Source: a bacterium
Lineage (GTDB): Bacteria; Armatimonadota; Fimbriimonadia; Fimbriimonadales; Fimbriimonadaceae
Direction: 5' to 3'
Assembly: GCA_013823945.1 (NCBI GenBank)
Contig: PNMZ01000004.1
Span: 62,001-126,000, forward strand
DNA: 64,000 nt
Both the position numbers and the translations under genes were made by a program. The first letter of the stretch is position 1, and every line of letters starts with the position of its first letter. The notes under the pieces were generated by a model, which searched no databases, had not been told where the DNA came from, and was given only the letters and a program-made list of their open reading frames with translations. Below are positions 19,858 through 23,600 of this stretch, one piece after another.

Positions 19858-20259
19858 TTACTCAAATCGCCGCTTAATGTTGATTTTGGGAACTGGGACA
19901 AGTGGGGTGTCCTGCCGAACAGGCGCATTTGAGTTCTTGCTCATCGCGGTCATTCGGAGTTCGGCGTCGCGGGCAAATTCGATGAACTGCTGCTCAAATT
20001 CGTAGCGCATGTCCTCCATATCGTCAAGGAGCTTGAGAATAATGTCCACTCCAGCAAGATTGACGCCGAGGTCTTGGGTGAGGCGTTGAATTTGCTTGAC
20101 CCTTGCGATGTCATTCTCACTATACAGACGATTTTTAGCGCCCACACGAGCGGGGATGACAAGACCAAGCTTTTCGTACTGACGTAGGGTTTGGGGGTGG
20201 ATGCCACAGAGTTGAGCGGCCACGCCGATCATGTACACGGGTTGTTTGGTGTTCCTCAT
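19858..20259 (-). CDS. hspR: HspR-type MerR-family heat-shock repressor
   Basis: 133 aa. The MerR winged-helix domain reads [20 protein letters not shown], then [51 protein letters not shown], which is the HspR subgroup pattern. A coiled-coil region ([20 protein letters not shown]) follows. HspR binds HAIR elements ahead of dnaK-type operons and acts with DnaK as co-repressor in actinobacteria. Here it overlaps dnaJ by 4 nt, and a HAIR-like site lies in front of dnaJ, so autoregulation is likely. Confidence 0.92.
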
Positions 20260-21209
20260 ACGGTGGATTTGCTCCGTGCTTTTCGGATGGAATTTAAGGC
20301 CTTTTCTTCTTCTTTGGTGAGTTCAGTCGGAACAGTGATTCTTGTTTTGATGAGGAGGTCTCCTTTGGAGTTGTTGGAGCCAGTGATGCCTTGGCCTTTG
20401 AGGCGAAAAGTTCGACCGGATGCGGTTCCGGCGGGGATTTTGAGGGTGCCGGAGGAACGCAGGGTCGGAACTTTGATTTCTCCGCCTAGAATCGCGTCGA
20501 GGTAGTCCACCTCAACTTCGGCTTCAAGGTCGTTGCCTTTGCGAGTGAATTTTGGATGGGGCGTCATTGTGACAGTAACGTAAAGATCACCTGTTTGGTT
20601 ATTGCCACCGCGGGCGCCTCCGCCTGAGACACGGAGTTTTTTACCTTCGGGAAATCCGGCGGGAATCTTGACTTCGACTCGGCGGGAACGAGGGGTCAGG
20701 CCTGATCCTTTGCAGTTGGGGCAGGGAGCCATTCCCCGGTTGGTGAGGAGGACTTGTCCGGAGCCCCGGCACTGGGCGCATGCATCGTTTACGCTGTAAG
20801 TGAGCGTTCTCTTAGTGCCTGAGTCGATCTCTTCAAGAGTTGCGGTAATGGATTGCTCTACGTTGGCAGGGGGAGCGGATGGGGCAGATTGTTGAAAGGG
20901 ATTTCCACCTCCGAACCCGCCGAAGAATGTTTCAAAGATCGTTCCGAAGTCGCCCATGTCCTCGGCCCTTGCTCCTCCGGGTCCAGATTGAACTTGATCC
21001 CAATTCACACCGAATTGGTCGTACTTCTTGCGCTTTTCAGGATCGGAGAGGACTTCGTGGGCTTGGCTGATCTCCTTAAATTTGCGCTCGGCTTCAGGAT
21101 TATTGGGATTGAGGTCGGGATGGTATTGGCGGGCGAGCTTCCGGTAAGCCGACTTGATTTCTTTCTCGTCGGCCTTTTTTGAAACTCCAAGGGTTTTGTA
21201 GTAGTCCAT
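20256..21209 (-). CDS. dnaJ: DnaJ/CbpA-type co-chaperone with two zinc motifs
   Basis: 317 aa. The J domain (1-70) has [20 protein letters not shown] and the HPD tripeptide at 30-32, which stimulates DnaK ATPase. A G/F-rich linker (GGFGGGNPF) is followed by two C-x-x-C-x-G-x-G motifs (CAQCRGSG and CPNCKGSG) instead of the four of classical DnaJ, so only one zinc site can form. The C-terminal substrate-binding region includes [23 protein letters not shown] 21209 begins the canonical MDYYKTLGV; a longer frame from 21233 would run into the HAIR site. hspR follows with a 4-nt overlap; dnaK and grpE are not in the window. Confidence 0.9.
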
Positions 21210-21232
21210 CTTCAGCTTTGTCGGCTCAAACA

Positions 21233-21253
21233 CTTGAGCCTATTACACTTAAG
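21233..21253. promoter_or_regulatory. HAIR-like HspR operator
   Basis: CTTGAGC (21233-21239), 7-nt spacer, ACTTAAG (21247-21253). The known HAIR consensus is CTTGAGT-N7-ACTCAAG; this site has the exact spacing and 12 of 14 matching positions. It ends 24 nt upstream of the dnaJ start in the dnaJ-hspR operon. The left arm also belongs to a second inverted repeat, GGCTCAA-N4-TTGAGCC at 21223-21240. Confidence 0.82.
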
Positions 21254-21360
21254 TAGACAGTATTGGCTGAAGTTTCGTTTCATGGATAGTGGGACGTGGG
21301 AGAATGTTTGCAGAATTTCTGAGGGATGGGGTGGAGAAACTTAGTTGGACTTCCTAGTAT

Positions 21361-22218
21361 TTGATTGTGCAACTGGCTAGTCTTGAAATACGGATGGCGC
21401 GGAGCGAGAATCTTCCTGTATTGCCTCAGGCAGTGGGGGAGATTATGCGCTTGGCGGATGATCCGAATGCGAATCAGCGCGAGATGGAGAAGGCTTTTGA
21501 GCAAGATCCTGCGATGACGGCAAAGATTTTAAAAGTTGCCAACAGTGCGTATTACGGTGGCGCGAACGTTCCGACGATTGGACGGGCGATTAGCTTTTTG
21601 GGAATGAGTGCCATTCGCAGTATGGTTGTGGGGATTAGCTTCCAGCAGATGTCGATGAACCGGTCGGAATCACGACATTTTGATAAATTGGTTTTTTGGC
21701 AGAATTCTTTGGCGACAGCGATTGGCTCGCGCGTGCTTGCGAAGTTGAAGGTTCCGGCAAAGGGTGAAGAGCTTTATTGTGCAGGAATGATGCATGACAT
21801 TGGAATTTTGATTTTTGAGCGGTTTGTACCGAAGGAATTGGACGAAGCGATTGAGCTGAGTAATCGTTCGGGCAAGTCTCTCCCAGATGCAGAGAAGGAA
21901 GTGCTCGGGTTTGACCACACTGAAGTTGGTGGAATCTTGGCACAGAAATGGGCACTTAATGATTTGCTGAGAAATGCGATTCGGTATCACCTGGATCCGA
22001 AGTCAGACAGTAGCTATTTCGAGACGACTCAGGTTGTCGGTTGGGCGAACCAGATTGCGGGGCTCTGTGGATTTCCGGGGCATGGTGTTGCGAAAGTGCC
22101 GAGTGAAGCCGAGCTTGCGGCTTCGATTGGATTGCCGCCCGAGCAGATGCCGATTATTCGACAAGTTGTGACCCAAGAAATCGAGAAAATTCAATCTTCG
22201 TTTAGTATTGCGGCCTGA
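21361..22218 (+). CDS. HDOD domain protein
   Basis: 285 aa, almost entirely one HDOD domain: ENLPVLPQAVGEIMRLADDP, then QREMEKAFEQDPAMTAKILK, VANSAYYGG, ISFLGMSAIRSMVVGISFQQ, and MMHDIGILIFERFVPKELDE. HDOD domains are HD-related but usually lack phosphodiesterase chemistry and act as signalling scaffolds for biofilm, motility or stress. No second domain is attached. Start is uncertain: TTG 21361, GTG 21367 and ATG 21394 are all in frame and none has a clear SD. Confidence 0.85.
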   Translation: MIVQLASLEIRMARSENLPVLPQAVGEIMRLADDPNANQREMEKAFEQDPAMTAKILKVANSAYYGGANVPTIGRAISFLGMSAIRSMVVGISFQQMSMNRSESRHFDKLVFWQNSLATAIGSRVLAKLKVPAKGEELYCAGMMHDIGILIFERFVPKELDEAIELSNRSGKSLPDAEKEVLGFDHTEVGGILAQKWALNDLLRNAIRYHLDPKSDSSYFETTQVVGWANQIAGLCGFPGHGVAKVPSEAELAASIGLPPEQMPIIRQVVTQEIEKIQSSFSIAA

Positions 22219-22310
22219 TTTGGTCGTAAATTTACGGGGTTTTGGAGACCAAGGAACGCTTTTGAATGAGCGTCTGTTGAAGGGGTCAGAGGTAGACTCG
22301 CGCAGCATTC

Positions 22311-22874
22311 ATGCTCTTTTCCAGGGCCAAAAATTCTCGCGATCGATTCCAATCTCAAGCTGAAGCGGTGTATCCGTCGCTTTTTGGGACAGCGTTGCGT
22401 CTCACCCGTGATCGTGAAGAGGCGGAGGATTTGGCGCAGGAGGCGATTGTGCGGGCTTACGAAGCTTTTGACCGTTTCGATGGTGAGAACTTCAAGGCGT
22501 GGATTTTGCGGATTCTGACGAATCTCTACATCAACAAGTATCGGCGTAAGAAGCGGGTCGGACATTCGGTTTCGCTTGACGACGAAGAGTCCAGCTATGA
22601 ACCAGTGGGTTTGGCGGAAGAATTGCCGGATCGCCAGCTTTTGGACGAGATGCTTGGGGCGGAGATTGAGGAAGCCTTGTCGCAAGTGCCGGAGATTTTT
22701 CGGATTGCGGTCTTGTTGAGTGATCTTGAAGGGATGACTTATGATGAGATTGCACTTGCTACGGAAGTGCCGGTAGGAACGGTTCGGTCCCGAATTGCAA
22801 GAGGCCGAGCAATTCTTCGCCGTGAATTGGAACGATACGCCCGAGAAGAGGGTTATCTGAAACAGGAAAGCTAG
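22311..22874 (+). CDS. ECF-type RNA polymerase sigma factor
   Basis: 187 aa. Region 2 (about 20-90) reads YPSLFGTALRLTRDREEAED, LAQEAIVRAYEAFDRFDGEN, FKAWILRILTNLYINKYRRK; region 4 (about 125-175) reads ALSQVPEIFRIAVLLSDLEG, MTYDEIALATEVPVGTVRSR, IARGRAILRREL. There is no additional C-terminal domain. This matches RpoE-like ECF factors. The gene for a membrane-spanning anti-sigma candidate starts 3 nt after its stop, giving the usual sigma/anti-sigma pair that responds to envelope stress. Target promoters are unknown. Confidence 0.92.
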   Translation: MLFSRAKNSRDRFQSQAEAVYPSLFGTALRLTRDREEAEDLAQEAIVRAYEAFDRFDGENFKAWILRILTNLYINKYRRKKRVGHSVSLDDEESSYEPVGLAEELPDRQLLDEMLGAEIEEALSQVPEIFRIAVLLSDLEGMTYDEIALATEVPVGTVRSRIARGRAILRRELERYAREEGYLKQES

Positions 22875-22877
22875 AAA

Positions 22878-23600
22878 ATGAATCGAGAAGTGGAATTGGT
22901 GCACGCCTTGGCGGACGGAGAAGTCACTCCGGTTGAAGAGGCGGAGGCAAAGCGACTGGTCGAATCTGATCCGAACCTCCGGGCAGAATTCGAATGGGCG
23001 AAGGCTTTGAAGTCTTCGATGGTTGCCAATTGCAAACCGATCGCGAACGATGAGGCTTGGAAGCGATGTGTGGGTCGCCTTGATGATCTTGACCGAGTTG
23101 CCAAAGCAGAGAGTTTTGTTGGGAAGTGGGCGTGGGTTTTTTGTGGCGCGTTGTTATTGATGATCTTTGCGGGAGGAATTGTGAGCCGAACTGTAGGTTC
23201 ACGCACGGTTTCATCAACGCAAATTGCGGGATTGCTTGATCCTACGGGATCGGGCCTTGTTGATGCAAAGCGGGTAGCTCCGGAAGTGAAGACTGCAGAT
23301 TTTGTGAGTTTGTCCGGATTTACGCCGACAAGTCGAGTCACGGGTTATCTTGATAATCGGCCGTTTGTTCGCTTTGGGTTGCGCGATCAACTTGGATTAG
23401 GCGGTCTTGCCGTCGTGATGATTCAGGGAGCCGATCGGATTGAGGGGCTTGACCAACCGACAAGTCACGTGGACATTCGAGCGGGGCGGCTGAACGATGT
23501 CAACGCAGTGACATGGCCAGTGCAAGGAAACACTTGCATTTTGTTCGGAGAACGACCAACCGACGAGCTTGTGGCGTTGGCCCAAGACATGATGAAGTAG
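22878..23600 (+). CDS. Putative anti-sigma factor, single-pass membrane protein
   Basis: 240 aa. The cytoplasmic part begins MNREVELVHALADGEVTPVE, the HALADGE-type start common in RseA-like and other anti-sigma N-termini; no H-x3-C-x2-C zinc motif is visible. One membrane helix lies at about residues 78-98 (WAWVFCGALLLMIFAGGIV). The periplasmic C-terminal part (about 135 residues) has no domain I recognise. It is the partner of the preceding ECF sigma factor by position. An intrinsic terminator follows. Confidence 0.78.
   Translation: MNREVELVHALADGEVTPVEEAEAKRLVESDPNLRAEFEWAKALKSSMVANCKPIANDEAWKRCVGRLDDLDRVAKAESFVGKWAWVFCGALLLMIFAGGIVSRTVGSRTVSSTQIAGLLDPTGSGLVDAKRVAPEVKTADFVSLSGFTPTSRVTGYLDNRPFVRFGLRDQLGLGGLAVVMIQGADRIEGLDQPTSHVDIRAGRLNDVNAVTWPVQGNTCILFGERPTDELVALAQDMMK

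Follow-up and report, generated by a model that had tools for sequence, protein, structure and literature searches.

HspR of Streptomyces is helped by DnaK, which acts as its co-repressor, and Sig1 of Deinococcus radiodurans is a sigma factor of the ECF type. Outside the actinobacteria, control by HspR through the HAIR operator is established in Helicobacter, Campylobacter and Deinococcus, as described in extracts of three papers (PMC6102357, PMC7464140, PMC6888292). For Helicobacter and Campylobacter, these extracts present HAIR as the element that nucleates HspR binding, with flanking or weaker HAIR-like sites being bound cooperatively (PMC6102357, PMC7464140), while in D. radiodurans repression by HspR/HAIR is found together with Sig1, which is reported to be essential for the induction of DnaKJ and GroESL (PMC6888292). 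In Mycobacterium tuberculosis, the consensus of SigH is GGAAYR-N17-18-GTT, and clpB there has an HspR site and a SigH promoter that overlap (extract of PMC4803200). A search of the open-licence literature retrieved no paper on HspR in Armatimonadota.

The window analyzed here, a stretch of 64,000 nucleotides from a bacterium of the Fimbriimonadaceae (Armatimonadota), reads CTTGAGCCTATTACACTTAAG (CTTGAGC-CTATTAC-ACTTAAG) at 21233-21253, which agrees with the HAIR consensus CTTGAGT-N7-ACTCAAG at 12 of 14 arm positions and has the exact N7 spacer. A preliminary description of this DNA had reported such a HAIR-like element directly before dnaJ-hspR, and its score and spacing were reproduced; a scan of the window with up to two mismatches revealed that it is the sole HAIR match. 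As dnaJ-hspR lies on the minus strand, the operator read toward dnaJ is CTTAAGT-GTAATAG-GCTCAAG; the ATG of dnaJ is located 23 bases beyond it, and hspR follows directly after dnaJ. In shuffled windows the mean number of HAIR matches at two mismatches or fewer was 0.12, with at least one match in 12 of 100, and thus the element taken alone is only mildly significant and the case is carried by its position and conservation. These analyses support 21233-21253 as a predicted operator of HspR, whose own gene comes second in the operon that would be controlled. Considered as a whole, the probable reading is that HspR operators at dnaJ-hspR, dnaK and clpB are combined with an ECF-type promoter, for which a SigH-like sigma factor would be the best candidate reader, and that the class of the promoter has changed. 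It is well supported by the sequence comparisons that the site would be an ordinary operator for its kind, the promoter setting being the part that is worth testing.

Table 1. Features of the dnaJ-hspR promoter region and its surroundings (positions within the window).
Feature	Position	Strand	Basis or remark
hspR, MerR-type repressor, 133 aa	19858..20259	-	NCBIfam NF047375
dnaJ, 317 aa, 2/4 CxxCxGxG zinc motifs	20256..21209	-	DnaJ domain matches; ATG at 21209
Weak second HAIR-like site TTTGAGC-N7-GCTGAAG, between HAIR and dnaJ start	21210..21230	-	2-mismatch match to degenerate pattern
Second inverted repeat: right HAIR arm + third half-site (TTTGAGC, minus, 21224-21230)	21223..21240	.	TTGAR conservation
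HAIR-type operator (predicted HspR site)	21233..21253	-	12/14 to consensus; family conservation at dnaJ
ECF-type -10-like element GTCTA, 18 nt after -35, abutting HAIR	21254..21258	-	Promoter motif alignment
ECF-type -35-like element GAAAC	21277..21281	-	Promoter motif alignment
HDOD-domain gene between dnaJ promoter and sigma gene; no part of the system claimed	21361..22218	+	PF08668
GGAAC-N18-GTT ECF-type promoter upstream of sigma gene	22253..22278	+	Orthologue conservation
Sigma factor of ECF type, SigH-like; may read the chaperone promoters	22311..22874	+	ECF sigma domain matches
Putative anti-sigma factor with a membrane anchor, 240 aa; a single hydrophobic stretch, near residue 84	22878..23600	+	No HxxxCxxC

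The product of hspR passes the NCBIfam equivalog model (113.1 bits against a cut-off of 105). The start of hspR overlaps the end of dnaJ by 4 bp, and hspR is placed under its own operator by position only, the overlapping pair being downstream of the HAIR. A longer dnaJ frame could begin at a GTG at 21233, and the ATG listed in Table 1 is common to the close relatives G004, G006 and G007. The closest named records to this DnaJ are those of Armatimonadetes bacterium Uphvl-Ar1 (97% identity) and of two Fimbriimonadaceae metagenome-assembled genomes (65-66%). Counts of the CxxCxGxG motifs in 36 DnaJ rows of the family, one of them partial, showed four motifs in 6, three in 3, two in 13, one in 3 and none in 11, while 21 rows from the other families of the order showed four in 17 and three in 4; the zinc domain of the DnaJ encoded beside hspR seems to be eroding in the family of the window. 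Across the phylum, 135 of 201 evenly drawn genomes had an HspR over the equivalog cut-off and 192 had some match at E ≤ 0.001, a figure which includes other MerR proteins; of 14 control genomes, 11 matched the profile at all and three were over the cut-off.

The suggestion of the preliminary description that further copies would be found before dnaK, clpB or hsp20 genes was borne out for the first two. The sites of this genome, which are at least those before dnaJ, dnaK and clpB among the matches listed, include CTTGAGT-CTATAAG-GCTAAAG (12/14) at 39 bases before the ATG of dnaK and CTTGACA-ATAAGAG-ACTCAAG (12/14) ending one base before the ATG of clpB. The single HSP20 gene of the genome has no HAIR, its best upstream match being 8/14, and was rejected as an HspR target. 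The degenerate HAIR pattern is also matched exactly at C2:621706 of this genome, within a long reading frame; this second match was counted against the reading.

Conservation was evaluated in 61 genomes, namely this one and 60 relatives, of which 37 belong to the family of the window (f1, taken as Fimbriimonadaceae) and the rest to families f2-f5 of the same order. HspR was detected in 58 (E ≤ 1e-10), dnaK in 58 and clpB in 57, and a site was scored as conserved at 10/14 or more and compared with the expectation from shuffling. Before dnaJ, such sites were present in 35/35 genomes of f1 (0.95 expected), and in 0/7 of f5 and 0/14 of f2-f4. Before dnaK they were present everywhere, in 37/37 of f1 (1.73 expected), 8/8 of f5 (0.42) and 13/13 of f2-f4 (0.65), and before clpB in 29/32 (1.05), 4/7 (0.21) and 9/9 (0.32), respectively. 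The dnaJ upstream regions of G002 and G030 and the clpB upstream regions of G008, G015, G029, G035 and G036 were unusable in f1, and the three f1 clpB genes with no site at this threshold are those of G021, G025 and G026. At the usual position before dnaJ, 34 of 35 f1 promoters reached the threshold and G016 scored 9; in G016 and G017 the best match is off the usual place. In f2-f5, dnaK and hspR were within about 4 kb on the same contig in 19 of the 20 genomes with both, those of G048 being on different contigs. The claim of HspR/HAIR control in this lineage is therefore supported by the dnaK and clpB sites and by conservation in the family, while its novelty is reduced: since HspR was already known outside the actinobacteria, adding one more phylum is a modest step. 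In f1 the clpB HAIR often abuts or overlaps the start codon (e.g., L059, 4067-4087), and the clpB transcript may thus be leaderless or nearly so.

Exact matches to the degenerate HAIR were also followed across the 61 genomes. The 30 loci examined comprised 14 at dnaJ, dnaK or clpB, four of hsp20 type in f2 and 12 located inside reading frames that are 143 codons or longer. Seven further places were all within long frames; one of them, a 14/14 match in G007, forms the centre of a more extended palindrome that lies between two genes and is more terminator-like. For the remaining matches listed, any assignment to a known gene relies on coordinates. In f2, the exact HAIR CTTGAGTGGAAGGYACTCAAG was present in six of 14 genomes. 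Of four such loci inspected, three had an intact HSP20 gene at a distance of 31-32 bases downstream of the HAIR (PF00011, 69.5-74.8 bits; cut-off 20.8), and the fourth showed no recognizable HSP20 frame. Among these f2 loci (L283-L286), the HAIR before HSP20 is preceded in all three whose sequence was viewed by GGGAACTT and CGTAAA elements, which resemble another ECF promoter variant.

Alignment of the family's promoters revealed an ECF-type motif near the operator. The expression G[AG]AAC-N17-19-GTY was found near the HAIR of 25/35 dnaJ, 23/37 dnaK and 17/23 clpB promoters in f1 and of 5/8 dnaK promoters in f5, against a shuffle expectation of at most 0.27 per set (0.27 for dnaJ in f1). In f2-f4 it was found in none of 13 dnaK and none of nine clpB promoters, and in the reverse-complemented segments used as control it was found in none of the six sets. 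To enter a set, a promoter had to have sufficient sequence upstream and a HAIR scoring 9/14 or higher within an interval fixed beforehand; the clpB set (23) is smaller than that used for HAIR (32). The expression was written after the alignments had been seen, so the shuffle expectations flatter the motif, and the contrast with the outgroups carries more weight than those expectations. The motif was missed in f1 at 10/35 dnaJ, 14/37 dnaK and 6/23 clpB promoters; the dnaK of this genome itself has GCAAC as -35 and is accepted by a looser expression only. The position of the GTY relative to the operator varies, falling on the first base of the HAIR's N7 spacer in 13 f1 dnaJ promoters and 22-25 bases before the HAIR in some f1 clpB promoters. 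No sigma-70-type promoter match for dnaJ was found at the 21233-21253 site. Elements of the SigH grammar GGAAYR-N17-18-GTT occur at the gene of the sigma factor described below and also, including variants with GAAAC, at the chaperone genes, which that factor may read. The putative ECF-type promoter against the operator and the SigH-like sigma gene nearby were both omitted from the preliminary description and are new here.

The perfect inverted repeat GGCTCAA-N4-TTGAGCC, previously noted as overlapping one HAIR arm, was confirmed with zero mismatches (expectation for two or fewer mismatches, 0.25). Its part beyond the HAIR is a third half-site conserved in the family: TTGAR occurs exactly 3 nt past the HAIR in 27/35 f1 dnaJ promoters, and each other offset from 0 to 19 occurs in at most one sequence. 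A full second HAIR at 21210-21230 was rejected as a family feature, only the third half-site being conserved and the full form not generally. The natural reading, by analogy with Helicobacter and Campylobacter, is that the third half-site would be a flanking weak site used cooperatively by HspR.

The sigma gene is located 1.1 kb from the HAIR. The nearest relatives of its product in the PDB are SigH of M. tuberculosis (5zx2, 6.6e-34) and a SigH chimera (6jcy, 1.9e-36), and the best of 93 matched NCBIfam families was SigH_actino (TIGR02947) with 134 bits, far below the cut-off of 251.55, so that by this test the protein is SigH-like and not a member of SigH_actino. Matches at E ≤ 1e-40 were obtained in 37/37 genomes of f1, 6/8 of f5 and 0/16 of f2-f4, three of the 43 containing a stop codon (G036, G044, G048). 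Upstream of the sigma gene, GGAAC-N17-19-GTT was present in 24 of 29 orthologues (0.11 expected; 30 loci, one too short) and in nine of 12 orthologues of a second set (0.06 expected; 13 loci, one too short), one of these nine being at an odd distance. In 25 of the 29 loci (L226-L255), a GGTANANT element was observed no more than 40 nt upstream of the sigma start, which suggests a second promoter, of sigma-A type and with a short leader. The RshA and RsrA partners of SigH and SigR are zinc-binding anti-sigma factors with HxxxCxxC. The gene that follows the sigma gene here gave no Pfam or NCBIfam match, and HxxxCxxC occurred in none of 30 partner ORFs (L249 being a wrong-frame pick); in the other 29, a hydrophobic stretch lies around residue 80. 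The product of the gene in the window would be a membrane anti-sigma factor, a candidate assignment outside the family models. On the basis of motif grammar, similarity to SigH and co-occurrence, the sigma factor is the best candidate for reading the chaperone promoters.

The outgroups provided further information on the promoter. Twenty stretches from other families of the phylum were used; in 16 of them the region before dnaK could be tested, and in each of these 16 dnaK is followed by dnaJ and hspR. The left arm of the dnaK HAIR read.TTGA[CT]A in 15/16 of these, a count for which site choice favored TTGA[CT]A arms by 1.5 points, in 13/13 of f2-f4 and 8/8 of f5, and in 2/37 of f1, where GAG[TC] was found in 28/37. 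A TANNNT just downstream of the dnaK HAIR was present in 11/16 elsewhere in the phylum, 12/13 in f2-f4, 4/8 in f5 and 4/37 in f1. The ECF-type motif was found near none of the 16 phylum dnaK sites, as near none of the 13 in f2-f4, compared with 5/8 in f5 and 23/37 in f1; a wider search over 300 bases in the phylum yielded two ECF-like matches, at dnaK in L302 and before dnaJ in L299. Together, these data suggest an ancestral dnaK promoter of sigma-A type with its -35 (TTGACA) in the left arm of the HAIR, the promoter class having changed while the operator stayed. In f5, five of the six genomes with the sigma factor have the ECF motif, the exception being G050, which has the sigma factor and TANNNT and no strict ECF motif. 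The two f5 genomes with neither sigma factor nor ECF motif (G052 and G054) have TANNNT, belong to one genus and are 86% and 73% complete. Only G042 (1/8 in f5) has both motifs together, and a true double-promoter stage is thus thinly supported. A tree built from 64 DnaK rows united f1, f5 and the only f3 genome in one clade (100/99), within which the placement of f3 beside f1 is weak (91/65); the f3 genome (G038) has neither sigma factor nor ECF motif, which fits co-loss and not a simple single gain. A HAIR was found in one of 30 short HspR loci of the phylum, a count that is uninformative because dnaK lay outside these loci. In L298, dnaJ-hspR has a HAIR of its own (CTTGACA-N7-ACTCAAG) with no dnaK within the stretch, possibly an independent split of the operon elsewhere in the phylum.

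Several other explanations of the element were considered. A chance match, for which the presence of one in 12 of 100 shuffled windows at two mismatches might speak, is contradicted by the position of the site and its conservation throughout the family, and its probability is practically nil. Regulation of dnaJ-hspR by HrcA through CIRCE, the HAIR match being coincidental, is extremely improbable: hrcA is present once in the genome, but CIRCE (TTAGCACTC-N9-GAGTGCTAA) was found nowhere in the genome within two mismatches, and at three mismatches at four places against two for a reversed-pattern control, none of them in the window, so that no convincing CIRCE faces a HAIR conserved across the family. 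The repeats could also act in RNA, with GGCTCAA-N4-TTGAGCC forming a thermometer-like hairpin in the 5' leader that controls translation of dnaJ. The window's own sequence does fold to -17 kcal/mol (z -2.78; 2/200 shuffles as stable), but no more than 7/35 family sequences could form the complete stem of six pairs, and canonical pairing was 0.729 compared with 0.714 with shuffled partners (388/2000 as high), or 0.755 compared with 0.761 for the HAIR arms. No Rfam match was obtained in 20900-21700, and the HAIR recurs at dnaK and clpB, there sometimes abutting or overlapping the start codon. Because the bases and not the pairing are conserved, the hairpin was rejected as very unlikely.

With the HspR operator retained as the preferred reading, the promoters might nevertheless be read by a different ECF sigma factor, the one in the window being an unrelated neighbor. 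GGAAC-type -35 elements are common to many ECF groups, and a first look with this sigma factor as query gave 25 candidates in the genome, any other of which could thus read the chaperone promoters. The adjacency of the HDOD and sigma genes is also confined to the genus, the HDOD gene being near the sigma gene in 7/30 orthologue loci, all from the genus of the window. Against this, the sigma factor and the promoter type co-occur, f1 and most of f5 having both and f2-f4 neither; both f5 genomes devoid of the sigma factor lack the motif, GGAAC-N17-19-GTT stands before the gene of the sigma factor itself in most of the genomes tested, and its closest solved relatives are SigH. Another reader is for these reasons considered rather unlikely, and the SigH-like factor is kept as the candidate in what follows.

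From the observed sites, positions, conservation and HspR call, we infer binding, repression and relief by heat. When unfolded protein is scarce, HspR would occupy the HAIR, aided at dnaJ by the third half-site, and would block dnaJ-hspR together with the unlinked dnaK and clpB, heat relieving the block. In f1, the HAIR would be near or over the -10/start region of the G[AG]AAC-N17-19-GTY promoter, and induction would thus probably need both release of HspR and the ECF sigma factor; as the predicted dnaJ transcription start falls within the HAIR, bound HspR would block initiation. A history of this arrangement can be proposed, which as a whole is possible and short of likely. In the ancestor shared by Fimbriimonadaceae and f5, or close to it, the sigma-A promoter of dnaK would have been overlaid by an ECF promoter, f5 retaining the TTGA[CT]A arm and f1 mostly losing the sigma-A elements. 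In f1, dnaK would then have been split from dnaJ-hspR, with ECF promoter and HAIR placed on each unit and on clpB, the chaperones becoming a two-key circuit of HspR and a self-driving SigH-like sigma factor held by a membrane anti-sigma factor. If true, such a circuit would link the chaperones of the cytoplasm to a signal from the envelope or to another one sensed at the membrane. The analysis predicts a heat-shock regulon in a phylum for which very little regulatory genetics exists, and the outgroups look like a record of sigma-factor change, from sigma-A-type only through mixed to ECF-type, with the repressor site kept.

Compared with the known systems, the locus shares with the Streptomyces HspR/HAIR regulon the repressor family, the operator CTTGAGT-N7-ACTCAAG with its spacer and the targets dnaK, dnaJ-hspR and clpB, but belongs to another phylum and has dnaK apart from dnaJ-hspR, each with its own HAIR. 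The dnaJ promoter here has one HAIR and a third half-site, whereas three inverted repeats are described at dnaK of S. coelicolor (extracts of PMC6102357, PMC7464140). The third half-site recalls the weaker HAIR-like sites of Helicobacter and Campylobacter, where, unlike here with no convincing CIRCE, HspR acts with HrcA (extracts of the same papers, PMC6102357, PMC7464140). As in D. radiodurans with Sig1, HspR/HAIR would be paired with a sigma factor outside the actinobacteria (extract of PMC6888292). The arrangement at clpB of M. tuberculosis is similar in the overlap of an HspR site with a GGAA...GTT ECF promoter and in the chaperone targets (extract of PMC4803200), but the sigma factor of the window falls clearly short of the SigH_actino cut-off, GAAAC is a frequent form of the -35 and the partner of the sigma factor looks like a membrane protein with no HxxxCxxC. 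With a SigH-type promoter and HspR predicted to be paired in so distant a phylum, it becomes testable whether the combination known from M. tuberculosis is ancient or convergent.
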